The translations under genes and the position numbers were made by a program. The notes beneath the pieces were generated by a model that ran no database searches, was not told the origin of the DNA, and saw nothing but the letters and a program-made list of their open reading frames with translations. DNA of 30,766 nucleotides from Chaetoceros tenuissimus (taxonomy: Eukaryota; Bacillariophyta; Thalassiosirophyceae; Chaetocerotales; Chaetocerotaceae), in assembly GCA_021927905.1 (NCBI GenBank), contig BLLK01000004.1, positions 1 through 30,766 of the forward strand. Reading direction: 5' to 3'. This document shows, piece after piece, positions 1-25,017 of this stretch. Position 1 is the first letter of the stretch, and every line of letters starts with the position of its first letter.

Positions 1-830
1 ATCAACCTAGTACCACTCCGTCATCGATGCCATCAGATATTCCGTCAGACGTACCATCTGATCAGCCAAGTGTGCTTCCGTCATCGATGCCATCAGATAT
101 TCCGTCGGACGTACCATCTGATCAACCAAGTTCACTTCCGTCATCGATGCCATCAGATATTCCGTCAGACGTACCATCTGATCAACCAAGTGTGCTTCCG
201 TCATCGATGCCATCAGATATTCCGTCAGACGTACCATCTGATCAGCCAAGTGTGCTTCCGTCATCGATGCCATCAGATATTCCGTCAGACGTACCATCTG
301 ATCAACCAAGTGTGCTTCCGTCATCGATGCCATCAGATATTCCGTCGGACGTACCATCTGATCAACCAAGTGTGCTTCCGTCATCGATGCCATCAGATAT
401 TCCTTCAGACATACCTTCTGATCAACCAAGTGTGCTTCCGTCATCGATGCCATCAGATATTCCGTCAGACGTACCATCTGATCAACCATCTTCACTTCCG
501 TCATTGATGCCATCAGATATTCCGTCAGACGTACCATCTGATCAACCAAGTGTGCTTCCGTCATCGATGCCATCAGATATTCCGTCAGACGTACCATCTG
601 ATCAGCCAAGTGTGCTTCCGTCATCAATGCCGAGCGATGTACCATCTGATCAACCAAGTGTGCTTCCGTCATCGATGCCATCCGACATACCTTCAGATAT
701 TCCATCGGATATTCCTTCTGACGTACCTTCAGACCAGCCAAGTGTGCTTCCGTCATCGATGCCTTCAGATCTTCCATCGGATATTCCTTCTGATATTCCA
801 TCTGACGTACCTTCAGACCAGCCTTCTTTG
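1..830 (+). repeat. 60-bp tandem array (PSXX coding), gene A
   Basis: Near-identical 60-bp units recur in exact register from the window start to about 620, each encoding five PSXX tetrapeptides. Variation is mainly at a few sites (ccaagtgtgc versus ccatcttcac; gacgta versus gacata). From about 625 units change length by whole 12-bp tetrapeptide steps: one is short (no PSDI) and two are long (extra PSDI). This indicates in-frame 12-bp slippage nested within the 60-bp repeat. Every unit carries ATCGAT or a one-base variant, plus TGATCA. Confidence 0.95.
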
Positions 831-1403
831 CTTCCGTCGTCTATTCCAAGCTCTATCCCATCATCTGAGCCTAGTAGTCTTCCATCTTCGGAGCCTAGTC
901 TGGTTCCGTCGAGCGAACCGTCACTGCTTCCGTCGAATGCACCGTCGGTTCAGCCAAGCCGTTTTCCATCTTCAGTGCCTTCCTTGCTTCCTTCGAGCGA
1001 ACCGTCACTACTTCCGAGCTCTGAGCCTTCTTTGCTTCCGTCATCCGAACCTTCTAGTGACCCGAGCTCTGAGCCTTCCAAATTACCAAGCCTATTGCCT
1101 TCTTTAGATCCTTCTTCTGAACCCTCTTTTCTACCTAGCTGCTCTGTTATGCCTACGGCACAACCTACTAAATATCCAAAGTCAGGATCTCAGAAGAAAG
1201 CAAAGTCTCAGAAAATATCTCTGTGTGGTTCGGAATCACCTTCTCTTTCTCCTACGGCTGAAAAAGATGCTCCAAGTGACCAAATGGACGATTCGGGTAA
1301 TGGCGTGGCGGCCTCTAGCAAAGAAAGTAGTGGTAGTATTTCTCCGAAAACCTTTTTCTGCCTTGTAACTACAATCGTGGGAAGTATAATACTCCTCGTG
1401 TAA
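3..1403 (+). CDS. Gene A 3' part: PSXX-repeat surface protein with C-terminal GPI-anchor-like signal
   Basis: The frame is open to the window edge, so the 5' end lies outside; the ATG at 27 is only an internal repeat Met. The protein is a run of Pro-Ser-X-X tetrapeptides. The first ~260 residues follow a 20-residue higher-order unit, [20 protein letters not shown]; then come less regular PSSE/PSLL tetrapeptides to about base 1138. A ~70-residue non-repetitive tail (two Cys, several Lys, acidic stretch) follows. It ends in small residues (SSGSIS), a PKT spacer and a hydrophobic stretch (FFCLVTTIVGSIILLV) that reaches the stop. That order is the classical GPI-attachment signal, though a plain C-terminal membrane anchor is possible. 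Inference: an extended, Ser/Pro-rich and probably O-glycosylated cell-surface or frustule-associated protein. No enzymatic domain is seen. The 3' half is duplicated at 4970-5605. Confidence 0.75.
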   Translation, partial: QPSTTPSSMPSDIPSDVPSDQPSVLPSSMPSDIPSDVPSDQPSSLPSSMPSDIPSDVPSDQPSVLPSSMPSDIPSDVPSDQPSVLPSSMPSDIPSDVPSDQPSVLPSSMPSDIPSDVPSDQPSVLPSSMPSDIPSDIPSDQPSVLPSSMPSDIPSDVPSDQPSSLPSLMPSDIPSDVPSDQPSVLPSSMPSDIPSDVPSDQPSVLPSSMPSDVPSDQPSVLPSSMPSDIPSDIPSDIPSDVPSDQPSVLPSSMPSDLPSDIPSDIPSDVPSDQPSLLPSSIPSSIPSSEPSSLPSSEPSLVPSSEPSLLPSNAPSVQPSRFPSSVPSLLPSSEPSLLPSSEPSLLPSSEPSSDPSSEPSKLPSLLPSLDPSSEPSFLPSCSVMPTAQPTKYPKSGSQKKAKSQKISLCGSESPSLSPTAEKDAPSDQMDDSGNGVAASSKESSGSISPKTFFCLVTTIVGSIILLV

Positions 1404-1745
1404 AGGTCCACAAGCAGTCCAATGTGTACGTAGACCTAATGTCTATAAGTCTATTATCTCAATAATTTCATTCAGTATTCCTATTTCCTTACTTACTTCA
1501 GTGGAAATGACAACATCTTTCAAATCTTTATGAAGGCAGATTCAGTTCAAAATAGCTATTTTACATTTGCTTTTTTGATGAAAAAACAATCTTTCGAAAC
1601 ATTATAATAGTAAAGTAGTATTACTTGGCTCTTGTTTTGCTGCATAATCTTAAATAAGGAATCCACAAAAGGAGAAATTCCCCCCCCCCCCCCTCCCAAT
1701 ATACTTGTTGTATCGTAAAGAATTGACCTGCAACAAAGGAAATAC

Positions 1746-1759
1746 AGGACCCATGGGGC
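1746..1759. repeat. Inverted repeat arm, left (partner 2393-2406)
   Basis: AGGACCCATGGGGC here is the exact reverse complement of 2393-2406. Similarity extends weakly on both sides, and CAAAACTTTCCA/TGGAAAA motifs recur near both arms (1805-1875 and 2315-2370). It could be the remnant of a small non-autonomous element. The same pair recurs at +4201/4202 in the duplicate. Confidence 0.5.
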
Positions 1760-2068
1760 TCCGTACAAACTTGCAGTATGGTAAAAAAAGTAGGTGTGGC
1801 GGTGCAAAACTTTCCAGGGGGGTGGAAAACTGCTTATTAACCGCTACAAAACTTTCTACCCACATGGAAAATTCCTTTACAAGTCGAGAAATTACATAGA
1901 TTAACAAAATACAACTTTCTAAAACCCCTAACTTATCATTTTATATATTTAATATTCTACTTCAAAATGTAATGATGTGATTGCTGTAATTGATTTGATC
2001 ATATAACATTTTCTTACGTTCACCCCGTCAACTACTTCATTGTTGTATGATTTCATTCTGATCAGGAA

Positions 2069-2120
2069 TTTTCCATCCCTTTTTTAAAGCGGACTTTTCC
2101 ATCCCTTTTTTAAAGCGGAC
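2069..2120. repeat. 26-bp perfect tandem duplication
   Basis: Two adjacent identical 26-bp copies (2069-2094 and 2095-2120), each containing CCATCCC, six T and AAAGCGGAC. Present again at 6270-6321 in the duplicated block. Confidence 0.9.
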
Positions 2121-2392
2121 ATGATTCTTCTAGGTATTATCCACTGAACTCAGTGGATTTGAGTATGAATAATAGAGCTACATATGCAAAGGCGATGACT
2201 TCAGTTTCTGTACTTCTGACTCAACTCTGATGCAGACGTGATGCTCTGATACCCTTCAGGATCAAATACTATGTAAACATATAATAGTAATTATAGAGGT
2301 TATGAAGCTCAATACTGACCCCCCTGGAAAATTGGGAAAATTGGTGGTCCGCAGAGGCAAAACTTTCCACCGGAACCACTTTTTACGTAGGT

Positions 2393-2406
2393 GCCCCATG
2401 GGTCCT
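2393..2406. repeat. Inverted repeat arm, right (partner 1746-1759)
   Basis: Exact reverse complement of 1746-1759, 630 bp away. See the left arm. Confidence 0.5.
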
Positions 2407-3080
2407 GGAAATACTCCAAATTTTCATGAGTATGTTCAATTTATGGACTCGGTTTCTTCGCTGCTGCCTCCTTCTCAAGTTGGGGGGCTTTTTGAAATGC
2501 TAGCTACTCCAAAAGATAATCGAGGTAAAAGGAATTATCCATGCATCTCCTCTTAGACGGTTTAGAAGAATATGCGCATGAACTAATGAAGTGAAGATTA
2601 TTTCGAAAATGTCGTAACTTTAACGTGACCAAATTCTTAAGGGAAACAATTACATGTCTATCTTCCCCAACAATTGTATTCTATTTCGAGGTTAGGGACG
2701 ATAACTGAAAATACTATCAACTCAAATAGAAGTCAGGAGATACAGCGTAAATGAAGTCTTGCTTCAGGATGAAGTTGTAAAAATGAGGTCAGCACAGTCG
2801 ATTGACCAAATTAATAAATCTAGAAGAAGTGAGAAATCTACAGTACTATTCTATAGTATAAATATGACAGACCTACAAAGAAAGAAGTCACTCAGTAGAA
2901 GCAACAACTTGAGAAGCCAATCATGCTTATAGATGTGCCAACCTCAGATATGTTATCGGATTGAGCAATTAACAGTGACTTCACGACGTAAAGATCATGT
3001 CGAATATTGACTCTCCCTCGAGAATGCAAATATTAGTTTGTGCAATATGCAAGAGTGACATTGAATAATAGTCAGTACAC

Positions 3081-3085
<5 letters not shown>

Positions 3086-3112
<27 letters not shown>
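3086..3112. repeat. AT dinucleotide microsatellite
   Basis: About 13 AT units. The second copy of the block carries the same tract, of the same length, at 7287-7313, which argues that the two copies separated very recently, since such tracts mutate fast. Confidence 0.9.
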
Positions 3113-4086
3113 ACTCATTGATTATAGTTATTACCATTATAATATAAATGGGGAAAAGAAATGACCAGTACAAAGTACTTTTATAGTCGTTCTTATATGA
3201 AGGGCACAACCTTCTTCGAAAACCGTAGCCGTTGTTTAAAAGGCGACATGAAGCTAAAGAATCAATTTTTAGTTTCGCTGCCCATTCCCTAGATTTTACC
3301 TTTAATTTTTCTAATTGAAATTTTCTACTACCTGATGGAGACGTCCATATTCCTAGCATTTCCTTGTATTGAGAGTTGAGTCTTTGTAGTCAGTACACAT
3401 TTCAACGCAACCAAACCATAGCATCAAATGGTTTCAGAAAATTGAAAGCTACTTATCCTTCAAGTGCAAGAATGCCGAATTTCCTCTCCACTATTTGGGA
3501 GAGCATGATGTTGTACCACAGAACAAGAAACGTTGTGTAGCCTCAATTCATAAAACAATAGAAATAATACTCTTGTTTAGATATGTTTCAAAGTAAAAGC
3601 AAGTAGACAAGACCAAGAAAGGCCTAGACGAAGAATTATCAATACCACAACAAATGAAATCATACACTCCCTCCTTTCTTGTCTTCAAGTTTCCCATACA
3701 ATAAAATGAAAAAGAAACTTCGTTCATTAGTTAATATATCTGCAAGTCAAGATCAGACATTACAGGTTGCTGAGTAAGACCAAACCAGTCTTTGCCTCGA
3801 TGAGATCATTCTGTATTATGCTCTGGTCTAAACTAATTTGCTTGGATAATGAAGAAGGTTACATCTTTCATTGTGCTATTAGCCTCCAGACTGAATTTTA
3901 ATCGTGCATAGAACAATATCTCGGAGTTCGAGGTATTTCCATCGTTATTTCTGGCATCAATCTGAAACGTTCGAGAAATCACTGAAGTCGAGCCTAGAAT
4001 GACTAGAAAGCAAGTGGATGACACGTTTCCTACCTATTTCTACCTCTATGACCAGCCATTCAAATGAAATTTTGATGAAGGGTGCT

Positions 4087-4770
4087 CCATCGGATATTCC
4101 ATCTGATCAACCATCTTCACTTCCGTCATCGATGCCATCAGATATTCCGTCAGACGTACCTTCTGATCAACCAAGTTCACTTCCATCATCTATACCATCA
4201 GATATTCCGTCAGACGTACCATCTGATCAACCAAGTGTGCTTCCGTCATCGATGCCATCAGATATTCCGTCAGACGTACCTTCTGATCAACCTAGTACCA
4301 CTCAGTCATCGATGCCATCAGATATTCCGTCAGACGTACCTTCTGATCAACCAAGCGTGCTTCCGTCATCGATGCCATCAGATATTCCGTCAGACATACC
4401 TTCTGATCAGCCATCTTCACTTCCGTCATCGATGCCATCAGATATTCCGTCGGACGTACCATCTGATCAACCAAGTGTGTTTCCGTCATCGATGCCATCA
4501 GATATTCCGTCGGACGTACCATCTGATCAGCCAAGTTCTGTTCCGTCATCTATACCATCAGATATTCCGTCAGACGTACCATCTGATCAACCAAGTTCAC
4601 TTCCGTCATCGATGCCATCAGATATTCCGTCAGACGTACCTTCTGATCAACCTAGTACCACTCCGTCATCGATGCCATCAGATATTCCGTCAGACGTACC
4701 ATCTGATCAGCCAAGTGTGCTTCCGTCATCGATGCCATCAGATATTCCGTCAGACGTACCATCTGATCAA
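4087..4770 (+). repeat. 60-bp tandem array, second gene A copy
   Basis: Eleven to twelve regular 60-bp units in register with no indels until about 4773. Variants such as AGTACCACT (PSTT) match the unit at the very start of the window, so this array and the one at 1-620 are close relatives or the same array seen twice. Confidence 0.95.
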
Positions 4771-5605
4771 CCAAATTGTGCTTCCGTCATCGATGCCATC
4801 AGATATTCCGTCCGGACGTACCATCCTGGTAACCAAGTGTGCTTCCGTCATCGATGCCATCAGATATTCCTTCAGACATACCTTCTGATCAACCAGAATT
4901 ATTAGCTTCCGTCATCGATGCCATCGAATATTCCGTCAGACGTACCATCTGATCAATATCGGATAGCTGGATCTTCCATCGGATATTCCTTCTGATATTC
5001 CATCTGACGTACCTTCAGACCAGCCTTCTTTGCTTCCGTCGTCTATTCCAAGCTCTATCCCATCATCTGAGCCTAGTAGTCTTCCATCTTCGGAGCCTAG
5101 TCTGGTTCCGTCGAGCGAACCGTCACTGCTTCCGTCGAATGCACCGTCGGTTCAGCCAAGCCGTTTTCCATCTTCAGTGCCTTCCTTGCTTCCTTCGAGC
5201 GAACCGTCACTACTTCCGAGCTCTGAGCCTTCTTTGCTTCCGTCATCCGAACCTTCTAGTGACCCGAGCTCTGAGCCTTCCAAATTACCAAGCCTATTGC
5301 CTTCTTTAGATCCTTCTTCTGAACCCTCTTTTCTACCTAGCTGCTCTGTTATGCCTACGGCACAACCTACTAAATATCCAAAGTCAGGATCTCAGAAGAA
5401 AGCAAAGTCTCAGAAAATATCTCTGTGTGGTTCGGAATCACCTTCTCTTTCTCCTACGGCTGAAAAAGATGCTCCAAGTGACCAAATGGACGATTCGGGT
5501 AATGGCGTGGCGGCCTCTAGCAAAGAAAGTAGTGGTAGTATTTCTCCGAAAACCTTTTTCTGCCTTGTAACTACAATCGTGGGAAGTATAATACTCCTCG
5601 TGTAA
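4087..5605 (+). pseudogene. Gene A 3' part, second copy, frame broken in the array
   Basis: From 4087 about eleven 60-bp units read [12 protein letters not shown] in one frame. Near 4773 a +1 insertion (ccaaattgtgc for ccaagtgtgc) starts a 200-bp stretch of indels (to about 4969). The PSXX frame resumes in another phase from about 4985 and runs through a C-terminus identical to gene A, with the same hydrophobic tail and stop at 5605. An ATG-started ORF exists from 4018, but its first ~23 codons come from duplicated 3' flank, so this is a junction product and not a real N-terminus. Either a broken tandem gene or an assembly join through the array. Confidence 0.75.
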
Positions 5606-7281
5606 AGGTCCACAAGCAGTCCAATGTGTACGTAGACCTAATGTCTATAAGTCTATTATCTCAATAATTTCATTCAGTATTCCTATTTCCTTACTTACTT
5701 CAGTGGAAATGACAACATCTTTCAAATCTTTATGAAGGCAGATTCAGTTCAAAATAGCTATTTTACATTTGCTTTTTTGATGAAAAAACAATCTTTCGAA
5801 ACATTATAATAGTAAAGTAGTATTACTTGGCTCTTGTTTTGCTGCATAATCTTAAATAAGGAACCCACAAAAGGGGAAATTCCCCCCCCCCCCCTCCCAA
5901 TATACTTGTTGTATCGTAAAGAATTGACCTGCAACAAAGGAAATACAGGACCCATGGGGCTCCGTACAAACTTGCAGTATGGTAAAAAAAGTAGGTGTGG
6001 CGGTGCAAAACTTTCCAGGGGGGTGGAAAACTGCTTATTAACCGCTACAAAACTTTCTACCCACATGGAAAATTCCTTTACAAGTCGAGAAATTACATAG
6101 ATTAACAAAATACAACTTTCTAAAACCCCTAACTTATCATTTTATATATTTAATATTCTACTTCAAAATGTAATGATGTGATTGCTGTAATTGATTTGAT
6201 CATATAACATTTTCTTACGTTCACCCCGTCAACTACTTCATTGTTGTATGATTTCATTCTGATCAGGAATTTTCCATCCCTTTTTTAAAGCGGACTTTTC
6301 CATCCCTTTTTTAAAGCGGACATGATTCTTCTAGGTATTATCCACTGAACTCAGTGGATTTGAGTATGAATAATAGAGCTACATATGCAAAGGCGATGAC
6401 TTCAGTTTCTGTACTTCTGACTCAACTCTGATGCAGACGTGATGCTCTGATACCCTTCAGGATCAAATACTATGTAAACATATAATAGTAATTATAGAGG
6501 TTATGAAGCTCAATACTGACCCCCCTGGAAAATTGGGAAAATTGGTGGTCCGCAGAGGCAAAACTTTCCACCGGAACCACTTTTTACGTAGGTGCCCCAT
6601 GGGTCCTGGAAATACTCCAAATTTTCATGAGTATGTTCAATTTATGGACTCGGTTTCTTCGCTGCTGCCTCCTTCTCAAGTTGGGGGGCTTTTTGAAATG
6701 CTAGCTACTCCAAAAGATAATCGAGGTAAAAGGAATTATCCATGCATCTCCTCTTAGACGGTTTAGAAGAATATGCGCATGAACTAATGAAGTGAAGATT
6801 ATTTCGAAAATGTCGTAACTTTAACGTGACCAAATTCTTAAGGGAAACAATTACATGTCTATCTTCCCCAACAATTGTATTCTATTTCGAGGTTAGGGAC
6901 GATAACTGAAAATACTATCAACTCAAATAGAAGTCAGGAGATACAGCGTAAATGAAGTCTTGCTTCAGGATGAAGTTGTAAAAATGAGGTCAGCACAGTC
7001 GATTGACCAAATTAATAAATCTAGAAGAAGTGAGAAATCTACAGTACTATTCTATAGTATAAATATGACAGACCTACAAAGAAAGAAGTCACTCAGTAGA
7101 AGCAACAACTTGAGAAGCCAATCATGCTTATAGATGTGCCAACCTCAGATATGTTATCGGATTGAGCAATTAACAGTGACTTCACGACGTAAAGATCATG
7201 TCGAATATTGACTCTCCCTCGAGAATGCAAATATTAGTTTGTGCAATATGCAAGAGTGACATTGAATAATAGTCAGTACAC

Positions 7282-7313
<32 letters not shown>

Positions 7314-8739: not shown

Positions 8740-9376
8740 ACTATGTCTCCATTTTACTTTGATACAGTATTCGAGAATTGCAATAATAGTCGAGCCTAAA
8801 ACATCTAGGAAGAAACTGAATGCAACATTTCTTCTTGAGTATTGTCTCAAAGTGGTCAAATTTCGTATGAAAATTGAGAAAGTGATCTATTTACAATCTA
8901 TCGAAGAGGACTATTTGGGACAAGGCTTTGTAAAATGAGTGATTTTCGAGGAGACAAAACTGCGTTTTATTTATCATAGCTAACAAATCAACCAAGCAAC
9001 CAATAGTTGCTAAGTACATGCCTCGTCGAAAAGAAAGAATTCAACCTAGTCTTTAGAATTAGATTATGAAACTATTCTTTGCCTAAGTCTAAAACAATTT
9101 TCATCAACTTCCAAGAATGACGAAATGGAGAAAAGAAAAGAGTGTAAATGCGCCCGTATTTTTGTCTAAACCTGATAATACAGCCATTTGCTGCATCAAA
9201 AGCTATGCTCCTATCTGAGATAGAAAAAGAAGCTGCTCCGCTCCCATTTTCAACATAAAGAAAAAAGAGCATTACTATCTCAAGATGAACATCAATTAGT
9301 GCTCCCACCTTTTCTCTCAAATTATAGATATTGACGCCTCGACTGTCTGACTTGAAGAATAAGTCACGTAGTCCTC
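8740..9376. repeat. Diverged duplicate of 14865-15450
   Basis: Collinear similarity with 14865-15450: shared stretches include gtcgagc near 8790/14864, ctaacaaa...accaagcaacca near 8980/15060 and gaagctgc...ctcccatt near 9230/15300. On the minus strand both preserve a peptide-like stretch with NGSGAASFS and SDRS, so this may be the remnant of a minus-strand host gene, broken by stops and frameshifts in at least the second copy. No domain recognised. The match ends where the retroelement fragment begins (about 9377). Confidence 0.6.
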
Positions 9377-10260
9377 CCAATAGAGCACATTCCAATGCAG
9401 ATCTATGCCGCTGCTGTAAAATGTTTGCAGAATCAACAGTATACCTCCTTATTCTCCCTGTCTTTAAAACTATCAGAGAGATACTGTTACAGGAAGTTGA
9501 TACATTTATCATATCCATTAATAATACAGAGTCCACGCTACAGCAATTTCTCATGGCAGGTATAAGAAGTTGGATGGACGACCCTGAAGAAGGGGTGATA
9601 ACTATCAATATACTAACCTCCTTTCTTCCTGTGGTGAAAAAACAGAATGATATTGGGTGGTATTCGACATTCCCTGGGTTTCATACATAAAACATTATCC
9701 TGTGTCAACACAATCACCATCTCGCAATCAACTTTAAACGAACCGGCACAGCTTGGGCCAAACATATTATCACAAAATTTTGGATATAACTTGTTAGTTT
9801 TGGGCTGCGCAAACTGCAACTAGAGAGGAATTCCAGGGACTTGTAGCTCGGATAGAGGCTAGTTCTACTATTTAAAACATTTCTGACTCAATCCATACGA
9901 GATCGAAGCTTGACAACTGAAAATAAAAAGGCCTGGCTCTTATTAGAGTAGCAAGTGAAGCACATATGGACACACTGATTGATGAATTCTCCCATAATGA
10001 TATGAGTCAAGAACAGATCGCCCTCGATCCGGTCGGTAGAGCATCATCTTCATAGCAGGATCAGAATCCTTTTCTTTAGTGGCCTGGGCTACTGAGGGAG
10101 CGGGGCTCTACTCTCTTCTCGAGGTATTCACGCACTAGACGCTTGATCGTCTCGTCTGTGTATGCATTCCAACAGTGAGATTCTGAAAGAATACTTTTGA
10201 CAGTAAGACGAGGTCTTTTTCTAATGGTACTCATAATTTTATTAATCTTGTGTTATATAT
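9377..10260 (+). pseudogene. Retroelement fragment 1 (zinc-knuckle and C-terminal part), decayed
   Basis: Conceptual translation matches residues ~443 to the end of the protein encoded at 12619-14664: SNADLCRCCK versus SNTSLCPCCK, then GIRSWMDDPEEG, NDIGWYST, RTGTAWAKH, DEFSHNDM and LDP. The frame is broken by stops and shifts from about 9690 on, and the last zinc-ligand Cys is lost. A 3' non-coding tail (10050-10260) matches that of fragment 2 and, inverted, that of the intact insertion, ending in GTGTTATATAT. The RNase H domain is absent. Orientation is opposite to the young insertion. Confidence 0.85.
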
Positions 10261-10465
10261 TGGGAATCTTTCACAATGCATTCATCTTGGTTATCCATAC
10301 AGAGTTCTTTGGTTTGTAGTCTGTAGCCAATTGGAGAAATTGCGGCATATGATGCTTCTCCTCCTTTGGAAGAGGCTTTAATTTTGCCGTGCTATTGATG
10401 CAAAGCAATTGAACATTTTATTAGTGAGTACAATCTGATCTACGTAGCACGAACGTTTTGTTTAC
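10261..10465. repeat. Empty-site paralog of 14640-14837
   Basis: Directly after the 3' end of retroelement fragment 1, this sequence matches 14640-14837 for about 200 bp (ttatccatacagag, agaaattgcggcatat, gatctacgtagcacgaacg). It shows what the region at 12393/14640 looked like before the 2.2-kb element inserted there. Confidence 0.85.
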
Positions 10466-10474
10466 TTTCGATGT

Positions 10475-11574
10475 GTACCATAGAACAAAAAACGCTGTGT
10501 ATAGCCTCAACATTTATAAAACGACAGAAAAAATGTATAAGAATCTACTCACACTCGCTTTCATTCTGGACAGTGACTTTAGACATTGCTTCAAATTAAA
10601 AATAGAGAGGACAAGAGAGTAAAGCAACGACGGAGAATGGCTAGTACCACAATTAATGAGGAAATAATGTAGTCCCTATTTTCTTCTTTTCAAGTTTCAG
10701 AATGTAATGAATGGAAGAAGAAACGTGGTTCAAGTTTCTAATGCCATTAACGGAAGAAGAAACTTAGTTCATAGCTTAATTATATCTGCAAAGCCAAGAA
10801 CGGCCTTTACAAGCTAGGCTTTTGCCTCGATGAAACCATTCTGCAGTATACAACAGTCTAAAGAACTTTGCTTGAATGCTGAATTTTTAGTTAGAGAGGG
10901 GATAATGAAAAATGCTACATGTTTCATTGTTCTACCTACAATGAAATAGCTGGTTCAGTTGAGGCAAAAGCAGAAGATATTCTAGTCTGATTTGTAATCG
11001 TGCATAAAAGTATATCTCAGAGGCCACGGTATTTCCATCGTATTATTTCTGGCATCACTCTGAAAAACTCGAGAAAACACTGATAGTCGAGCCTAGAACA
11101 ACAGTAGATGCCACGTTTCGTCTCGAATTTCACTGTCTTTCCCACCTACTTAAAAACCTGTATCGCTAGCCAGTCAAATAAAATTTGGATAAGGGGGCGA
11201 GTCATGGTTAGTAAATACTCCAACCACTTTGCACATTCACTATGTCTTCATTTGCTTTGATACTGTTAGCTTCTGAAGATACTATTGAGACATGATCAAA
11301 AGCGAGTGAATTTTTAGTTCAGGTTTAGCGCTTTCTCCATTTTCCCACAAATGTATGTTGGCGAATCATTGAACAAATATAGAAATTGTGCTGGAAATGT
11401 AAGAGTCAATAGTTTCATTTCCTTCCACGCTCTTTTGCATCTATCGAGAGGTATCTTCTCTAGCTAGTCTCACCTTCGTCCACTTTTGCTGAAAGTTGTT
11501 CAGATAATTAGGTAGTTATTGACACCATGATCATCGCAAACAACTGTCATGGTGAAGTTTTCGTTTCCTCTTTT
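10475..11574. other. Non-coding stretch, partly a diverged copy of 7700-8287
   Basis: 10475-11195 aligns loosely with 7700-8287: tgtaccayagaacaa, ttccatcg...tatttctggcatca, and gtcgagcctagaa followed by ccagtcaaat. Similarity is patchy with many indels. 11196-11574 shows only a short resemblance near 11235 to about 8735. No intact gene. Confidence 0.55.
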
Positions 11575-12393
11575 GGACTCTTTCACAAAGAGCTATGACC
11601 TCGGTCCTTGATAAAAGAATTATATGTAATTAGTGGGCAAAAATAAAAGGAGTCGACTAGCATCTTCTTCAACAGGAGATAGGGTGGGCTAGTATCAGAA
11701 GAGCTCGAAAAAGAAGGTCATTCGAGCAAAATAGATTTATCACAAAAACAAATAGCTAATACTCGTCCCACCGGTACCAACCTTTTCAATAGAGCACGTT
11801 CCAATACAGACCTATGTCCCTGTTGTAAGAGGTTTTCAGAAACAATAGTACACCTCCTCATTACCTCTGTCTCTAAAACTATCAGAGAGATACTGCTACA
11901 GAAAGTTGATGCGAGACATTTATGATATCCGTTAATCATACACAGCCCACGCTACATCAATTTCTCATAGCAGGTATAAGAAGTTGGATGGACGACCCTA
12001 AAGAAGGGGTGATACAGTCAATATGCCAACCTCCTTTCTACCTACAGCGACAAAACAGAATGATATGAGGTGGTATTCGACACTCCTAGGTGTCATACAT
12101 AAAACATTATCCTGTGTCAACACAATCAACATCTTGTAATCAGCTTGTCTCGAGAATAGATCGGCCTTTATCCGGTCGGTAGAGCATCATCTTCATAACA
12201 CGATCAGAATCCTCTTCTTCAGCGGCCTACACTACTGAAGGAGTAGGACTCTAGCTCTATTCTCGAGGTTTGCATGCACTAGACGCTTCATTGTCTCGTC
12301 TGTTTATGCATTCCAACAGTAAGATTCTGAAAGAATACTTTTGACTGTAAGACGAGGTCTTTTAAAGGTACTCATAATCTTACGTCTTATGTT
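11575..12393 (+). pseudogene. Retroelement fragment 2, decayed
   Basis: Translation matches residues ~375 to ~540 of the 12619-14664 product: TSVLDKR, LLQQEIGWASIRRARK, EQNRFITK, NTDLCPCCKR, GIRSWMDDP. In-frame stops appear near 11625 and 11657 and shifts later. It shares lineage-specific changes with fragment 1 (HLLI, SKTIREILLQ), and its 3' flank is homologous too, so the two arose from one insertion by later segmental duplication. The 3' tail 12180-12393 matches 10050-10259. The young element sits exactly at its 3' end. Confidence 0.82.
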
Positions 12394-12412
12394 ATATATT
12401 GGAAAACTTTCA
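12393..12412. repeat. Target-site duplication, left copy
   Basis: The 20-mer tatatattggaaaactttca is repeated exactly at 14620-14639, flanking the inserted element. The matching unoccupied sequence, slightly diverged, is at 10253-10272. Confidence 0.85.
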
Positions 12413-14619
12413 TATATAACACAAGATTACTAAGATTATGAATACCTAAAAAGGTTTCGTCTTACAGCCAAATGGTATCTTTTAAAATCTCACTGTTGAA
12501 ATACGGCCCTAAGCGATCATGCGCTAAGTGTCCGCACTTCTAAAGAAGAGAGCTAGATTCCCGCTCCTTCAGCAACCTATGTTGCCGAACAAGAGGAGTC
12601 TGAGCATGCTATCAAAGCCTATGTCCTTTTGATTGGATCGAGACCGATCCATTCTCTGAGTATGTCATTATGTGAAAACTCATCGACAGGAGCATCCATG
12701 TGTGCTTCTCTAGCTGAGCGAATAAGTAAGAGCCATTCCTTTTTTGTTTCGGTAGAAAGATCTTGTATAGTGTTAGGGTCCAAACGAAAGTGATGTGAAT
12801 AAATAGAACGTGGTAGGGATCGTAAGCCCCTGCTTAATTCTATTTTGATTGACCGTTCCAGGGATTCTAGACCCCTAAATTCATCAATGGTGCTAGTATT
12901 GTGGAGCAGCCTATTACGTTCTGCCCACATTTGGTATGTCATGTTCCAAAGTTTGGTAATGACATGCTTAGCCCAAGCCGTACCCGTACGTCTGGACTGA
13001 AGCTGATTGTAATAAGTATGTTGATAACGGATTATATCCTTGTGTATGAATCCCAAAATGGTTGAATACCAACCAACATTGTTCTGTTTAGAAGCTATTG
13101 GAAGGAAATCTCTGGATAGGTTAACTGGTATAATGCCTCTATCGGGATTGTCCATCCAACTTCGAATGCCGGCAACTAAGAAATTTCTTAGCTGAGGTTC
13201 TGTGTCAATGGAAGCCATGAAAGTGTCGAATTCTGTGAGCAATGTCTCTCTGAAGCAGTTTGTATCGGGACAGGACATAAGGTGTACAGTAGTCTCTTCT
13301 GCTATCTTACAACAAGGGCAAAGGCTTGTGTTGGAATGTTGTCTCTTTTCAAGATTTGTTCCTGTAGGGAGATCATTTGCCATAAGTTTGGTAATAAAAC
13401 GATTTTGTTTGAAGGAGCGTTCCTTGCGCGCGCGTCGTATACTTGTCCAACCTATGTCTTGTTGAAGAATTGTGGAGGAGACTCCAGTCACTTCAGACCA
13501 GTAATCACAGACTGTGCGTTTATCCAAAACTGAAGTAATCGCTGGAGTCAAATTAGAGGTGATATTGACTGCATCGATTTTGATTGTGGAGATGCCGACC
13601 TCTCTGGAAAAATCTGTTGGTGGTAGGGCTGTAAAGTAATATGTTGCTATTTCTTTAGCATAATCATCTGCAATACAGTTCAGATGTTCCAAAAAGGTAA
13701 GGGGTCTATAAAGTTCATCAGCGTGTCCTTTGACCTTTGTAGGTTGTGGGGAGTATGGAACTTCTTCCCATAGTTCTATCAGTGATGAAATAAGATCCAC
13801 AGAAGTGGTAGAGGACTTCAGATGAAAGCGTTTAAGATGGAGACACTCGACTGCACTATCATTATCACTGGCTGAAATGATGGAAGCTTGTGTTGGCTGT
13901 AGTAGGGGAGTTAGAGCTTCTATGCAGTTGACAATACCCACTAAGGATCCTATTTCACCTCTGTAGGAGTTGAGATCTTTTTCTAATCCTGGAATGTAGC
14001 CACCCCCTTTAATCCACTGCATGCCATCCTGGGAGCAGATGATCCAACCGCTTGTACAGATATTCATATGTTCAAAGTATGAGCCATCACCTACACAAAG
14101 GGCAGTACCATCCGCTATGTCCCGTAGTAAAATATCTATATCATCACTCATCTTGATAAATTGAAACAAGTACGGAATACGTGGCAAGTAGATGGTGTAA
14201 CGTCCCAGCCTCATTGTTTCTCTGTTACTATTCAGGAGGGTGAACACGGAAGAGGTCTGAGTGACATGTGAGAATTCTCCATCGTATTCTACTGTCACTC
14301 TTTCAATTGTATTTGGGTCTGGGCGTTGTGCTGCATTGTGATCTGTAGTAAATCTCGTTCGGCTTTGGAGATGTTGACTATAAGAGAACCAAGTGTCATC
14401 TTCCCGGTATAAAAGGCGAGTACCATCCCTCGTGCGAAACCAATTCCATTGATCAATCCAATCGGAGGCTGATTCAAGTTGCCATTGATAAAGAGTATGA
14501 TACATGTTAATGCCTTGGGGAAAAATCATATGCATTGCTTTAATCCAGACTTTATAGTCTTTTGATCGAATATCATGTTTGTCAGGCCAATTGAAGTTAT
14601 TCCTGTCTCCTTCAAAGAC
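12413..14619 (-). mobile_element. LINE-like retroelement insertion, 5'-truncated, 2.2 kb
   Basis: The segment lies between 20-bp exact direct repeats, and the related locus at 10253-10465 lacks it while matching both flanks. Read on the minus strand, it carries an uninterrupted coding stretch (RNase H, zinc knuckle, C-terminal region), then a ~200-bp 3' non-coding tail (12413-12618) ending in cttgtgttatata. That is the same 3' end as the decayed plus-strand fragments; there is no poly-A. The fixed 3' end, variable 5' end and long target-site duplication fit target-primed non-LTR retrotransposition with 5' truncation. No terminal inverted or long repeats were seen. The open frame suggests a recent insertion. 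Confidence 0.82.
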
Positions 14620-14664
14620 TATATATTGGAAAACTTTCACAAAGAATTCGTCTTGGTTATCCAT
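12619..14664 (-). CDS. RNase H / zinc-knuckle C-terminal part of a non-LTR retrotransposon polyprotein
   Basis: 681 codons. A type 1 RNase H domain spans about residues 185-345 with the full acidic set: D193 (in GDGSY), E237, D269 (in NDSAVE), H314 (in VKGHADE) and D333 (in NCIADDYA). A zinc knuckle follows (C449-x2-C452-x8-H461-x3-C465), then the WAERN-type segment near 580 seen after such knuckles in LINE proteins. No reverse transcriptase motif or endonuclease is present. The RNase H-then-knuckle order resembles I/Tad-type LINEs more than plant L1. Residues 1-15, including the ATG, are encoded by target DNA and the target-site duplication; element sequence starts at residue 16. The ORF is therefore a truncated polyprotein tail given a start by chance. 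Expression and function are doubtful. Confidence 0.8.
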   Translation of the reverse strand: MDNQDEFFVKVFQYIVFEGDRNNFNWPDKHDIRSKDYKVWIKAMHMIFPQGINMYHTLYQWQLESASDWIDQWNWFRTRDGTRLLYREDDTWFSYSQHLQSRTRFTTDHNAAQRPDPNTIERVTVEYDGEFSHVTQTSSVFTLLNSNRETMRLGRYTIYLPRIPYLFQFIKMSDDIDILLRDIADGTALCVGDGSYFEHMNICTSGWIICSQDGMQWIKGGGYIPGLEKDLNSYRGEIGSLVGIVNCIEALTPLLQPTQASIISASDNDSAVECLHLKRFHLKSSTTSVDLISSLIELWEEVPYSPQPTKVKGHADELYRPLTFLEHLNCIADDYAKEIATYYFTALPPTDFSREVGISTIKIDAVNITSNLTPAITSVLDKRTVCDYWSEVTGVSSTILQQDIGWTSIRRARKERSFKQNRFITKLMANDLPTGTNLEKRQHSNTSLCPCCKIAEETTVHLMSCPDTNCFRETLLTEFDTFMASIDTEPQLRNFLVAGIRSWMDNPDRGIIPVNLSRDFLPIASKQNNVGWYSTILGFIHKDIIRYQHTYYNQLQSRRTGTAWAKHVITKLWNMTYQMWAERNRLLHNTSTIDEFRGLESLERSIKIELSRGLRSLPRSIYSHHFRLDPNTIQDLSTETKKEWLLLIRSAREAHMDAPVDEFSHNDILREWIGLDPIKRT
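14620..14639. repeat. Target-site duplication, right copy
   Basis: Exact partner of 12393-12412. The following bases (caaagaattcgtcttgg) continue the pre-insertion locus as seen at about 10273. Confidence 0.85.
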
Positions 14665-14864
14665 ACAGAGTTCTTTGGTTTGTAGCTTGTAGCCATCTGG
14701 AGAAATTGCGGCATATTATACTTATCTTCCTTTGGAAGAGGCTTTATTTTTGCCGTGCTATTGATGCAAAGCAATTGAACATTTATTACTCAGTACAATC
14801 TGATCTACGTAGCACGAACGTTTTGTTTACTTGCTGAAAGATATTTGAGAAGTACAAGTAGTCG

Positions 14865-15450
14865 AGCTTACAACATCTTAGAAGCAAGTGGATACAACAT
14901 TTCCTTTTGAGTATCGTCTCAAAATGGTCGAATTTCGTTTGAAAAATTGAGAAACTGATCTATCTACTTTCGTGTCTGAGAGGACTATGAGGGTCAAGGC
15001 TTTGTAAATGGGTGATTTTTGAGGAGATAAAACTGCGTCTTATTGTATCTATAATAGCTAACAAACAAACCAAGCAACCAAAAGTTGCTTTCATACCTGT
15101 CAAAAGGAAAGAAATTGACCTTGTGATAAAATAAGATATACATAGATTGTAAAACTATTCTTTATCTCAACTTCCGAGAATGACGGAATAGAGAAAAGAA
15201 GGGAGCAAATGTGCTGGTATTTTACCCCTCCTTGATAATACAGTCAGTCGTTGCATCGTAAGCTGCAATCCTTACTGATCTATCTGAGGTAGAAAAAGAA
15301 GCTGCCCCACTCCCATTCTACAACATAAACAAGAGATGGGCATTACTATCGAAGAATAGTAATGAGTATCAATAATTACTGCCGCCTTTTCTCAAAAGTT
15401 ATAGATGTCGCCGCCTCGACTTTCTGACTTGGAGAATGAGCCACGTAGTA
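14865..15450. repeat. Diverged duplicate of 8740-9376
   Basis: Same order of shared blocks as in 8740-9376, with many indels. Ends at cacgtagt (about 15443), the point where fragment 1 interrupts the other copy. Confidence 0.6.
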
Positions 15451-18444: not shown

Positions 18445-20336
18445 CAATGTGCCAACTGTGCCGTAGAGAAAGCACCGTCACTCTTTTCTTTGAAAAGTAG
18501 TCCCCGACGGGAAGGGAGAATGATTACTAGCCGTTGGCTGAGAGGCCATTTTGAATGTGCCATCGTGATCAATCCCATGAAGATTCTTAAAATTATGGTA
18601 CCGTCACTCTTTTTCTTTTTTCTTGCATGAGGAGTTCACGGTCGACCTCCGATGTGATTGGTTCTAAATAATGAAGAGAAGATAGCTACTATCATCATCA
18701 TCATCAAAGCTATTTAGGAATAGAACCTATGGAAGAACTAGTTTGATGAAATAAATACATATCAAACATTGAAATTCTCTTCGCTATGAGTCCTATCAAA
18801 TCTTGAGTAGAAGGACTTGGAGCTTCAAGAATATGGAACTACAAGCCAAATTGAAAGTTCGTGAGATTGCAAAGTAGTGATGATACCAGAATTTGCAAGC
18901 AAGAACAAAAAAAATATGCAAGCATGATTACCTCTGCGAAATCTAGTGCTGAAATGAACTGCCATCTGTAAAATTATTTGGCAAAAATTGGGGTTTTGGT
19001 AGAATTTTTTTTGACAAGACATGGGAAAAATAAGGAAAAATACAAAATATATGTGATGAAATGCTAATGAACTGAGTACAATGGCGAGATAAATCATGAC
19101 ACTAGGTATCCTTATACACAAATTGATGCTTTATTCATGCAATCAGAAATATAGTTTTGTATTCTACTGAATGAAGATAAAAAATGAGGAAGAACATTGT
19201 ACGTACTACCCAACACTGACTGTGCTTTTGAAATATAGAAGATGAGAAGAGGCGGAAAGTAAAATGGAATCAGTTTGGTACCCAATAATATTTTCTTGAA
19301 GTAAATGGATGCAAGTATCAAATCAAATTCATTGAAACAAAATTTGGAAAAGAATGTTACCTGAAGATACAGCTTAGTCCAACCTATTCCTCATCCCGAT
19401 GGACGACAATAAATACTCGCAAGAATGGATACATATAGAAAAGATTTATTTGCTTTCTATAATATTGATGCATTCTATTTCAAGAGATTACCAATATCCA
19501 TGGATGAATGTTTGTAGCTAGATTGATGATGGAAAAAAAGAAAAAATGCACTTCATCGTGTGCTAGTAATTTAGCCAAGAGACATGTCAATGTGTACCGT
19601 TAATTGTTTCCAAAAAAGATCCGTTGAAACTAATTTCATTATTTGGGTTCAACTCCACGAAGCTCATTATTTGGGTTCAACTCCAATTTCACACTTGGGT
19701 ACAAGAAAAACGATATCGCTAAATTACTTATGGCTGCAGTACAAACGGTAAAAGAACAATCTGCCAACTCCACAAACTCATAAAACAAAAAACACATAAC
19801 AGATAACGAAAAGGTGAGTCTCAGCCTGCTACATGAAGGAATTGTTGATGATTCATTCCAAGCAGGAATACTTTGATATGAACTGCACAGAAGCAAACTG
19901 TCGTTAGCATGAGAAGAATGGAAACGAAATTACTGTTGCTACACTTCTTTCTCTTGACTGAATATTAACGAACGACATGAACTGGAATGAAAGAATACAA
20001 ATCACAAAACCTGAAAGCACATAGCAACACCTTCCCTTCTTTAGATTGATTCATCTAACAACTCTTTCTTCACATCTAAAGGAAACTTTTGAGATATCTG
20101 TATTCATTGAGAAAAACTTTGTTTGTCGTTGAAACCTAAGTAAGTCTATTCTATGAGGATGATCACTCTGGAAACATATCCATCGCCCATCCTACAATCC
20201 TCAATTTCAAGTCTATATTTGAAAGAGGGAGTCCAAACACTTGCCTTTTTATCGACAATACTGCTAACTTTGTATATTAACCTCTGAAAACAGTTGATTT
20301 GATTTCGTCTCTTTATTTGGGTTTTAAACAGACAAG
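18445..20336. other. Intergenic region between divergent genes
   Basis: About 1.9 kb of AT-rich DNA separating the minus-strand gene from gene B. Short ORFs lack motifs. Visible features are a short ATC trinucleotide run near 18691 and a 22-bp direct repeat (19636-19657 and 19664-19685). It presumably holds the gene B promoter; no TATA element can be assigned with confidence. Confidence 0.6.
19636..19685. repeat. 22-bp direct repeat
   Basis: Two exact copies (19636-19657, 19664-19685) separated by 6 bp. Each contains GGGTTCAACTCC, which matches a tRNA B-box by chance; no tRNA can be folded around it. Confidence 0.8.
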
Positions 20337-23300
20337 ATGAAGTTTGCTTTAGCTCTCCAAACATTGAAACTGATGCTGATTGTATCAAAGGTGAAAGGAC
20401 AGGTAACTACTACCGCAAGTCCAACTACCAGTGCAATTCCAAGTATCAGTCCAAGTACCAGTGCAGTTCCAAGTGTCAGTGCTTCTCCCACTGCAGTTCC
20501 AAGCATCAGTGCAAGTCCAAGTACTAGTGCAGCCCCTACTTGTATTGATGAACCTGGCTGGGTTGATAATACTGGAAGGACCTGTGAGCAGGTTGAAGAA
20601 CGAGTAGCTTTTTACGCTACTAATTATAGTATCAATTACTGTGATCTACTACCTCCAGATTACAGAAATCTTGATAAGAGTATTTATGAAGCATGCTGTA
20701 TTTGCGGAGGATCTATTCATCAGACTCGTTTCCCAAGTTCAGTGCCTTCATCTATGCCGTCATTACTCCCGTCTTCGGAACCATCCTTAGCACCAAGTTC
20801 AATGCCGTCATCTGAACCAAGTCTTCTTCCATCTTCGGAACCAAGTCTTCTTCCTTCAAGTGAGCCATCATCTGTGCCTTCTGGTAAGTTATGCTTTAGA
20901 GGAGGAATAATCCGAATGTAGTATTATATAAATACAACCACTGACCTTTTATTTGTAAATGCTTTTTCAACAAAGATGTACCTAGCGATATCCCGTCGGA
21001 TGTACCTTCCTCGGCACCTTCCAGCCTACCAAGTCTTTTTCCATCTTCGGAGCCTTCCATGATTCCGTCAGATGAGCCAAGTCTTCTTCCTTCGGACGAA
21101 CCGTCTGAATCAACCAAACCATCCATCACTCCATCTGATGTACCTTCATCCGAGCCGAGTGATTTACCATCTTTCATCCCTTCCGCGATTCCATCTGGAC
21201 TCCCTTCTTCTATGCCTTCTGCGCTTCCGTCACTTGTTCCATCAGGAACACCATCTGACATTCCATCAGATATTCCATCGGATCAGCCATCTTCAACCCC
21301 ATCTGATATTCCATCTGCATCCTTGGTGCCATCCGTAGGACCGTCTTCCGAACCGTCCTCCGAACCGTCCATGGAACCTAGTGATGAACCATCGGATCAG
21401 CCATCTTCACTTCCGTCCTCGATGCCTTCTGATATTCCGTCAGACGTACCATCGGATCAGCCATCTTCACTTCCGTCCTCGATGCCTTCTGATATTCCGT
21501 CAGACGTACCTTCAGATCAGCCAAGTTTGCTTCCGTCCTCGATGCCTTCTGACGTTCCTTCAGATATTCCATCTGATCAACCATCTTCACTTCCGTCCTC
21601 GATGCCTTCTGATGTTCCTTCAGACGTACCATCTGATCAACCATCTTCACTTCCGTCCTCTATGCCTTCTGATGTTCCGTCAGACGTACCTTCAGATCAA
21701 CCAAGTTCAGCTCCGTCCTCGATGCCTTCTGATGTTCCGTCAGACGTACCTTCAGATCAACCATCTTCACTTCCGTCCTCGATGCCTTCTGACATTCCGT
21801 CCGACGTACCATCTGCTCAACCTTCATCTTTTCCGTCATCGATGCCATCAGACGTACCGTCAGACATACCAAGTGATCAGCCTTCATCTGCTCCGTCATC
21901 GATGCCATCAGATATTCCGTCAGACATACCATCTGATCAACCATCTTCACTTCCGTCCTCGATGCCATCAGATATTCCGTCAAACGTACCATCTGATCAA
22001 CCATCTTCACCTCCGTCATCGATGCCAAGTGACATTCCGTCAGACGTACCATCTGATCAACCTTCTGTGCTTCCGTCATCGATGCCAAGTGACATTCCGT
22101 CAGACGTACCATCTGATCAACCTTCTGTGCTTCCGTCATCTGAGCCAAGTTTTGTTCCATCTTTTGAGCCATCATCTCTTCCGTCAGACGTACCAAGTGA
22201 TTTTCCTTCTAGTAAGCCATCTGTCACTTCCCTCCCATCTTTGGAGCCTTCATCGTCTCCTTCGGTCTGTGTTGATGAACCGGGCTGGTTAGATAGATTC
22301 AATAGAAATTGTACTGTGGTGGCAGAGAAGGTAGCACTTTATGAGCCTTACTGTGGTTTAGGTGATCACATATATCTTGACAAGTCTATTTATCAAGCAT
22401 GTTGTGCATGTGAAGGCTCTATTCATCAGACCCGTTTTCCAAGTATGGTACCATCGGACGAACCATCTGCTCTTCCGTCTTTGGAACCTTCCGATAAACC
22501 AAGTTTGACACCGTCATCTGAACCGAGTAGATTTCCATCTTCAGAACCTTCATCAACACCATCATATGAACCATCTTCAATGCCGTCATTAGAGCCAAGT
22601 CTACTTCCTTCTTCAGAGCCTTCTCTCTCACTGAATCCTTCTGAGAGTCCATCAGGAACCCCTTCTTCTGAACCATCTCAAGTCCCTTCGAAGTTGCCAA
22701 GTATGCTACCGTCACTATTGCCTTCTTCTCAGCCAAGTGACCAACCTTCATTACTACCATCCAGTGCACCTTCTTTGACACCAAGTGATATACCTTCAGA
22801 TATTCCATCGGATCAACCAAGTTCAATTCCGTCATCTATGCCTTCTGATGTTCCGTCAGATGAACCATCGGATCAGCCTTCATCTGCTCCGTCTTCCGGG
22901 CCAAGTTCACTTCCTTCATCGATGCCATCAGATATTCCGTCAGACATACCATCTGATCAACCATCTTCACTTCCGTCATCTATGCCAAGTGACATTCCGT
23001 CAGACGTACCTTCAGATCAACCATCTTCACTTCCGTCCTCGATGCCTTCTGACATTCCGTCAGACTTACCTTCAGATCAACCAAGTGTGCTTCCGTCATC
23101 TATGCCATCAGATATGCCAAGTGACATTCCATCAGACATACCATCTGATCAACCATCTTCACTTCCGTCATCTATGCCAAGTGACATTCCGTCAGACGTA
23201 CCTTCAGATCAACCATCTTCACTTCCGTCATCGATGCCAAGTGACATTCCGTCAGACGTACCTTCAGACGTACCATCTGATCAACCATCAGTGCTTCCGT

Positions 23301-25017
23301 CATTTATGCCAAGTGATATTCCGTCAGACGTACCAAGTGATCAACCATCATGCTTCCGTCATCTATGCCAAGTGACATTCCGTCAAACGTACCTTCAGAT
23401 CAACCAAGTGTGCTTCCGTCATCTATGCCAAGTTCTGTTCCATCAGACATTCCTTCAGACGTACCTTCAGATCAACCAAGTTCACTTCCGTCATCTATGC
23501 CATCAGATATTCCGTCAGACGTACCATCTGATCAACCAAGTGTGCTTCCGTCATCTATGCCAAGTGACATTCCGTCAGACGTACCTTCAGATCAACCAAG
23601 TTTTTTCCCTTCTACTGTGCCTTCTCTTTCATCATATCCATCTTCTGAACCATCTTTGCAACCTACAGTTTGTGAAAATGATCCCAGTTGGTTCGGTCCA
23701 AACTTCAATTGCACTATAATCGATCTTCTTATTAAAGATGCGTCAGATGAAGCTTTATTTTGTAATTCATGGGAGGGACCATATGAAAATGAAAAAACGA
23801 TTTTTCAAGCATGTTGTTCTTGTGGAGGATCGATTCATCAGTCTCGGTTTCCTTCTTTTGTCCCCTCAGACCAACCTTCACTTAATCCAAGTGCAGAACC
23901 AAGTCTTTTGCCATCTTCATCACCATCCTCCCTTCCATCTTTGCAACCATCAACAACTCCTTCATTAGAACCAAGTAAAGAGCCATCGGATCAACCGTCA
24001 TCACTTCCGTCATCGATGCCAAGTTCACTTCCTTCAGACGTACCATCTGACCAACCATCTGCACTTCCATCATCGATGCCAAGTGATTTACCATCAGATA
24101 TTCCGTCAGACGTACCATCAGATCAACCAAGTTCTGTTCCGTCATCGATGCCATCAGATATTCCGTCAGACGTACCATCTGATCAACCAAGTTCTGCTCC
24201 GTCATCGATGCCATCAGATATTCCGTCAGACGTACCATCTGATCAACCAAGTTCTGTTCCGTCATCGATGCCATCAGATATTCCGTCAGACGTACCATCT
24301 GATCAACCAAGTTCTGTTCCGTCATCGATGCCATCAGATATCCCGTCAGACATTCCATCAGATATTCCTTCTGACCAGCCTAGTTCAAAGCCGTCATCTG
24401 AACCAAGCCTCTTACCATCGTCGATTCCTTCAGTGGTTCCATCAAGCGAGCCATCTTTTGAGCCAAGTCAATTTCCATCTTTTGAGCCCTCTCTATTACC
24501 TTCAAATGAACCATCTTTTTTGCCTTCCGATTTTCCTTCTGAATGCTTTAACGATCCTACATGGAATCTGACGGGATTTGACTGTGAGGAAGCAGAATAT
24601 GTAGTAAGCATAGGAGTTTTTACTCAAACTGAAGTCTGCGAAGGTTACAAACTTCCTAAAACAGCTGAGTTTTCCCACGACAAACAAATCGATAGAGCAT
24701 GTTGTATTTGTGGCGGATCAATCTACCAATCAAGATTTCCTTCTACTTTTCCATCTGCACAACCTTCGAGTCTACCAAGTTCTGAGCCATCATTGAATCC
24801 TTCTTCATTACCTAGCCTCATGCCTTCATCAGAACCAAGTACAATTCCATCATCAAAACCTTCTTTACTTCCTTCATCTATGCCAAGCTCGATGCCTTCA
24901 AGTGAACCAAGTCTTTTGCCAACACTTTCCATGATCCCATCCAATGAACCTTCTTCTAGACCATCTGATCAGCCAAGTCAAGTTCCGAGTAACATTCCTT
25001 CTGATCAACCAAGTGGC
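20337..25017 (+). CDS. Gene B: secreted PSXX-repeat protein with four six-cysteine modules (one frameshift)
   Basis: Start ATG at 20337; the N-terminus ([20 protein letters not shown]) looks like an ER signal peptide. A Ser/Thr/Pro linker and Cys module 1 follow in exon 1 (20337-20883). Exon 2 starts at 20976 in the matching phase. PSXX linkers alternate with modules at about residues 69, 614, 1082 and 1373, so about 1,530 residues are visible. At 23350 one G is missing (ccatcatgc for ccatcagtgc). Upstream the frame is codon phase 2 and downstream phase 1, and both sides read PSXX, so a single-base error or mutation is the simplest reading. The frame is lost in the damaged array after about 25017. 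General architecture (Pro/Ser-rich linkers, Cys modules) recalls diatom pleuralins and other girdle-band or adhesive proteins, though the Cys pattern differs. Probably a cell-wall or mucilage protein; inferred. Confidence 0.75.
20541..20738 (+). other. Six-Cys module 1
   Basis: Begins CIDEPGW and ends [16 protein letters not shown]. Cys spacing C-x13-C-x18-C-x17-CC-x-C. Confidence 0.9.
20884..20975 (+). other. Intron, 92 bp, phase 1
   Basis: 5' site G|GTAAGT and 3' site CAAAG|AT. Unspliced, the frame gives a short non-PSXX tail and a stop near 20921. Spliced, it reads [15 protein letters not shown], restoring the tetrapeptide period exactly. Confidence 0.9.
21390..22140 (+). repeat. 60-bp tandem array, gene B linker 1
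   Basis: About twelve regular 60-bp units encoding [20 protein letters not shown] variants, without frame damage. The nucleotide consensus is close to that of the gene A arrays, but units are more varied here (gatgttcc, gacattcc, cctcgatgc), suggesting an older, less homogenised array. Confidence 0.93.
22268..22444 (+). other. Six-Cys module 2
   Basis: Begins CVDEPGW and ends [17 protein letters not shown]-x13-C-x13-C-x15-CC-x-C. Most similar to module 1 (LDKSIYxACC in both). Confidence 0.9.
22790..23600 (+). repeat. 60-bp tandem array, gene B linker 2
   Basis: PSXX units with 12-bp length variation between modules 2 and 3. Contains the one-base deletion at 23350. Confidence 0.9.
23671..23856 (+). 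other. Six-Cys module 3
   Basis: Begins CENDPSW and ends [17 protein letters not shown]-x12-C-x16-C-x16-CC-x-C. Lies just after the frameshift but is intact. Confidence 0.9.
23990..24390 (+). repeat. 60-bp tandem array, gene B linker 3
   Basis: Between modules 3 and 4; four near-identical units from about 24110 to 24350, then irregular PSXX. Confidence 0.9.
24544..24744 (+). other. Six-Cys module 4
   Basis: Begins CFNDPTW and ends [17 protein letters not shown]-x12-C-x17-C-x20-CC-x-C. The most diverged module. Confidence 0.9.

Follow-up and report, generated by a model that had tools for sequence, protein, structure and literature searches.

A recent 5′-truncated LINE copy and its target site in the diatom Chaetoceros tenuissimus

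The stretch of Chaetoceros tenuissimus DNA analysed here (contig BLLK01000004.1, positions 1 to 30,766, hereafter the window) contains a 2,207-bp insert that is almost certainly a recent 5′-truncated LINE copy, placed by target-primed reverse transcription. The edges of the insert, its target-site duplication, an insert-free paralog, a 3′ end common to the family, varied 5′ ends, a nearly identical sister copy and the domain order of longer relatives are all directly visible in the DNA; we infer the biochemical steps, RNase H function and, if it occurs at all, translation of the chimeric reading frame that the insertion created.

The insertion and its target site

The insert lies on the minus strand at 12413-14619, between two exact copies of the 20-bp sequence TATATATTGGAAAACTTTCA, one at 12393-12412 adjoining the 3′ end of the element and the other at 14620-14639 adjoining its truncated 5′ end. 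The bases outside the repeat disagree at either end, so that the repeat ends sharply. The longest word common to the two 100-bp flanks is 20 bases, whereas none of 2,000 first-order Markov resamples gave more than 11, and among 20,000 resamples no repeat that was flush with both junctions was longer than 6 bases. The flanking direct repeats described in an earlier, sequence-only reading of this locus are thus exact, flush and beyond chance in the resamples. The span of 12393-14664 given there holds for the insertion, but not for its upper end, which marks only the ATG of an open reading frame, the insert proper being 12413-14619.

Comparison with other genome copies, referred to below by handles such as C14 and C29a, defines the two edges further. 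In nucleotide alignments, C14 and both C29 copies (C29a and C29b) have continuous coding sequence across the position of the insert's 5′ edge, while similarity to C14, C29a, C29b, C43 and C44 ceases no more than 2 bp from its 3′ edge; both are therefore real insertion edges. At the 3′ edge the element finishes without a poly-A tail in the terminus TAATCTTGTGTTATATA (12413-12429, minus strand), which recurs across the genome.

The flanks of the insert, joined with a single copy of the repeat, match window positions 10196-10467 at 244 of 272 positions (90%), and the insert is absent there, which bears out the earlier proposal of an empty site near 10220-10465. This insert-free locus (10007-10467, plus strand), in which the 3′ end of an old LINE copy and its downstream flank are duplicated, is a diverged local duplicate and not an allele. 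The two window paralogs of the target are 88.3% identical over 462 bp, or about 12% different, against a single difference in 2,207 bp between the window and C14 inserts, which makes the duplication much the older event of the two. The old copy in the paralog extends over 9373-10259 on the plus strand, with a protein match at 9373-9831, a nucleotide match to the 3′ region of the element and the 3′ terminus at 10243-10259. A further stretch common to both paralogous blocks, at 8753-9316 and 14826-15393 (75%), stands in rearranged order.

The corresponding old copy at the target itself, a decayed and 5′-truncated plus-strand member of the same family with an internal deletion, occupies 11591-12398 (protein match at 11592-12155, together with nucleotide matches) and terminates in GTTATATA at 12398. 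Its own insertion can likewise be compared with an insert-free locus, on C38, which matches both sides of the older copy contiguously and shows no LINE match (1291-1695 of the extracted locus; 316/424 against the joined old flanks). The overlap with C38 defines the older target-site duplication as 18-19 bp, namely TTGGACTCTTTCACAAAG at 11573-11590 on the 5′ side and TTGGAAAACTTTCACAAAG at 14626-14644 on the 3′ side, and the young and older duplications overlap by 14 bp. The landing site of the young insertion is accordingly the 3′ duplication left by an older family member on the opposite strand, a relation not noted in the earlier reading, and the window keeps two insertions made one after the other, both of which can be compared with a paralog that lacks the insert.

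Elsewhere the window contains a direct duplication (768-3112 and 4970-7313, spaced by approximately 4,201 bp) with blocks at 768-1067/4970-5269 (100%) and 1668-1967/5869-6168 (98%) and AT runs at 3086-3112/7287-7313. Tandem repeats of 60 bp that code for repetitive proteins fill 1-1400, 4000-4900 and 20300-30766, and between 24.9 and 27.8 kb the tandem repeats hold many overlapping broken frames, which reflect either decay or assembly error. Neither Rfam at the gathering threshold nor ARAGORN found anything on the window.

The chimeric reading frame and the enzyme of the family

The insert carries most of a 681-residue open reading frame (12619-14664, minus strand), of which residues 16-681 correspond to the C-terminal part of the LINE ORF2 protein. 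Residues 1-15 are encoded by target DNA: the 45 nucleotides from 14664 to 14620 lie outside the insert and supply the ATG and 14 more codons, in agreement with the earlier attribution of the start codon and first 15 codons to the target. Among the matches listed, the closest relatives (C14, 100%; C29, 99%) align from residue 15, and their frames stay open further upstream; two proteins of distant families, C32 and C21 (33% identity), match from residue 5, and their own frames also extend upstream. The DNA coding for the first eight residues, MDNQDEFF (14641-14664), was matched at three places in the genome, the window, C4:10274 and C38:997977, and the latter two are both without the window insert. 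Copies that share one 5′ boundary and the MDNQDEFF start, the pattern named beforehand as pointing to an independent gene family, are absent among the matches listed, so that the truncation reading stands. Relatives extending upstream of residue 16 were sought, and they were found to reach into the reverse transcriptase (RT) and the endonuclease. These longer copies run on upstream where the window copy stops, as the 5′ truncation suggested in the sequence-only reading implies.

The same reading had called the frame an RNase H/zinc-knuckle protein, and the zinc part stands. The zf-RVT motif (PF13966, CX2CX8HX3C; 13267-13425, minus strand) scores narrowly above the curated cut-off; the domain is above the cut-off in the window protein and C29a and below it in the C48, C32 and C54 proteins. 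The RNase H part is placed on motif residues without a profile match. Asp193, Glu237, Asp267, His314 and Asp333 (ORF numbering) are invariant in five of five aligned sequences, to which one family contributes two, and are probably RNase H residues, as judged from the alignment. The Pfam models RNase_H and RVT_3 had no match at the window locus, genome scans with PF00075 and PF13456 returned nothing there, and NCBIfam gave no match. PDB sequence searches for RNase H also gave no match, and a longer profile likewise retrieved nothing from the PDB; the best PDB row, Leo1 with an E-value of 0.009, was dismissed as not credible. A single-sequence fold model had a mean pLDDT of 36.6 and was unusable.

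The longer relatives supply the upstream domains. An Exo_endo_phos domain is found in C29b (E-value 1.5e-8), and the endonuclease lies upstream of the RT. RVT_1 is matched in the related families C48 and C32 with E-values of 4.4e-7 and 1.7e-7, respectively, both above the curated cut-off. The Pfam RVT_1 model had no match on the family's own proteins, nor on C54; the family's own copies align across the RT region, including the FVDD motif. The ORF2 protein of the family would thus comprise an endonuclease, a reverse transcriptase, a probable RNase H and the zinc motif.

The LINE family across the genome

Relatives were sought in 41,027,912 bases (41.0 Mb) in 68 contigs, where the protein search gave at least 68 matches, with 65 of 152 candidates scored. 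The 3′ end of the family is constant. A 3′ UTR query found 30 places in the genome, 23 of which stop at its last base. A scan for the 17-base terminus that allowed one mismatch gave 24 places, including 17 exact ones, and the reversed control gave none. Five other copies read at the nucleotide level have the same 3′ terminus, each followed by different DNA. At three sites, C52:11396 (exact) and C11:59799 and C44:1162374 (one mismatch each), no recognisable LINE body adjoins the terminus; the surroundings of the last two are identical. Folding of the RNA 3′ end is no better than that of shuffled sequences (z-score 0.12).

The 5′ ends, on the other hand, vary within the family, truncation leaving 4,351 bp in C29a, 3,660 in C14, 2,207 in the window, 531 in C28:5k, 266 in C59 and as little as 55, 34 and 33 bp in the shortest copies, the last being C32. 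Target-site duplications, variable in length at 13-20 bp, accompany nine of the 14 copies tested, in addition to the full-length C29b, whose duplication, 13 bp long, is located some 8.4 kb upstream of the 3′ end. They measure 20 bp in the window, 16 in C14, 20 in C59, 16 in C29:165k and C29:36k, 18 in C32:2048k and, beyond an extra TATATA, 20 in C29a; those of C32:2943k (13 bp) and C17:678k (16 bp) contain one mismatch each. Extra bases stand between duplication and element in C32:2943k (5), C32:2048k (9) and C17:678k (11). The two 55-bp C29 copies have common flanks and represent one insertion, later duplicated, although both enter the nine of 14. No target-site duplication was found at the other five copies tested (C54, C17:929k, C28:154k, C28:5k and C43:506k). 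At 11 loci a random-position control scored 7-10 at best; its best score rose to 34 in the repeat-rich window and to 16 at either 55-bp copy, and because of these high control scores it is the flush position, not the score alone, that carries the duplication argument at the window and the 55-bp copies.

The insertion was earlier called young, and the comparison with C14 agrees: the two copies differ at one of 2,207 positions (one mismatch in 2,209 aligned), the odd base being that of the window copy. C29a is 99.2% identical to the window insert; C29a departs from the window copy at 17 positions and C29b at 19 of 2,206, and at 13 positions the window and C14 agree against both C29 copies. A full-length donor with the window/C14 variants was not seen in the assembly, where the sole full-length copy seen, C29b, is frame-broken; the donor may be polymorphic, collapsed in the assembly or lost. 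The full-length copy at C29:679993-688399 (about 8.4 kb) carries an upstream open frame (ORF1), of which the part scanned had no Pfam match, and a frame break in ORF2.

A second LINE family is present at C48:740300-746900 and C16:2258100-2264700, where two copies, each with an open frame of 1,905 residues and a similar 3′ terminus ending in CTTGTGATATATA, are 99.954% identical over 6,482 bp, and this family also looks recently active. Another of its copies, at C29:243600-248600, is apparently interrupted, the upstream part resuming past approximately 1.6 kb without a LINE match.

The C14 twin resembles the window copy in its surroundings as well. An older decayed relative hosts it in antisense orientation, with a duplication of 16 bp (926-5419 and beyond of the extracted C14 locus), and when one duplication copy is kept, a protein match to C29a residues 672-835 spans the join. 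Both of the youngest, near-identical copies have therefore landed antisense in or at the edge of older relatives. Nesting with a duplication is seen in two of 18 independent insertions, the window and C14. In this count C43:711k is included by short flanks only and C29b in two pieces, and C28:72k, C21:1096k, C53, C14:1931k and C28:120k, among others, stand outside it, as do the window's old copies. A third candidate for antisense nesting, C40, was rejected: it abuts an opposite-strand copy with no duplication, and the plus-strand copy ends about 45 bp before the terminus. A small LINE fragment on the opposite strand lies about 660 bp from C44:872k, C29b has one 75-bp inverted match within its own span, and near the remaining loci of the 18 no second LINE was found. 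The binomial chance of at least two nested insertions in 18 is 0.006 at a LINE share of 0.64% and 0.05 at 2%, in a test made post hoc. It is doubtful at present that the family prefers its own older copies, or their edges, as antisense landing places and reuses old duplications in doing so; insertions into repeats may also just survive better.

Mechanism and significance

Taken together, the common 3′ terminus, the varied truncation, the duplications, the longer relatives and the near-identical copy argue for a frame composed of 15 target-encoded residues and a 5′-truncated LINE. A fixed 3′ end together with varied 5′ ends and duplications is what target-primed reverse transcription leaves, according to the available passages of a published description (PMC2881922). 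In such a scheme, the family's ORF2 protein would have nicked the plus strand after position 12412, beside the 3′ end of the older, decayed family member; reverse transcription would have been primed at the conserved 3′ terminus of the element RNA and halted approximately 2.2 kb in, and a second cut 20 bp off would have given rise to the target-site duplication upon repair. By chance, the point at which it stopped would have put a target ATG into the reading frame of the remaining C-terminal part of ORF2.

Other explanations have been weighed against this one. The 681-residue frame has no interruption and an ATG at its start, as expected of an independent host gene with its own start, for instance a domesticated RNase H/zinc protein; the closest relatives listed, however, align from residue 15 and extend upstream into the RT, and only 17 codons separate the ATG from the nearest upstream stop. 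The sister copy also speaks against a host gene, and since it differs at a single base in 2,207, the open frame needs no selection; this alternative is highly improbable. Movement as a DNA transposon or by segmental duplication, without reverse transcription, would be compatible with the target-site duplication, which alone leaves the mechanism undecided, and with a window rich in duplications. It is nevertheless hard to reconcile with a single fixed 3′ terminus combined with many 5′ ends and with the LINE enzyme domains in the longer copies, nor does the repeat listing show any inverted repeat of at least 18 bp joining the insert ends, and such an origin is therefore given very little credence.

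The same junction logic at independent loci, with different duplicated sequences, makes an assembly error, or a mis-joining of haplotypes, a most unlikely source of the repeat and the empty site, even though the tandem arrays of the window are split into many short overlapping frames and errors are thus possible elsewhere in it. No LTR was found on the truncated window copy among the largest 20 of 45 direct-repeat families. A LINE copy placed by target-primed reverse transcription remains the preferred reading.

RTE elements are not known to carry RNase H. RTE-like elements have been described in the diatoms Thalassiosira pseudonana and Phaeodactylum tricornutum, in the passages available, and like the window family they are non-LTR elements (PMC2806351). 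The domain order of the window family, endonuclease, RT, probable RNase H and zinc motif, would be that given for I group and plant L1 LINEs in the corresponding passages (PMC4640811, PMC5348765, PMC2881922). The D-E-D-H-D signature of RNase H, as described in part of one of these sources (PMC4640811), can be placed on the invariant columns and is followed by the CCHC motif, also as in I group and plant L1 elements. In the open-licence literature, the titles and abstract openings found did not name the window family.

LINEs are already known in C. tenuissimus, and the process is an ordinary one; the case is unusually clean. In strain NIES-3715, LINEs make up 0.64% of the genome, the highest share among the compared species, and no single LINE family is described in the passages and Discussion of that source (PMC8613185). 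The same passages report a viral fragment in the C. tenuissimus genome with target duplications of TTTTATG and with a poly-(A)-like sequence, and propose that host LINEs pasted it in (PMC8613185). The window family, in contrast, ends in TTATATA and makes duplications of 13-20 bp, so that the poly-(A)-like sequence and short duplications reported for the fragment in those passages are unlike its product. Preferential landing in its own older copies, if true, would keep insertions away from genes where the genome is compact. As a diatom example of target-primed reverse transcription the locus is very clean and preserves two insertion layers; the 3′ terminus TTATATA, the 13-20 bp duplications and the subfamily variants are markers for scoring LINE activity between strains.
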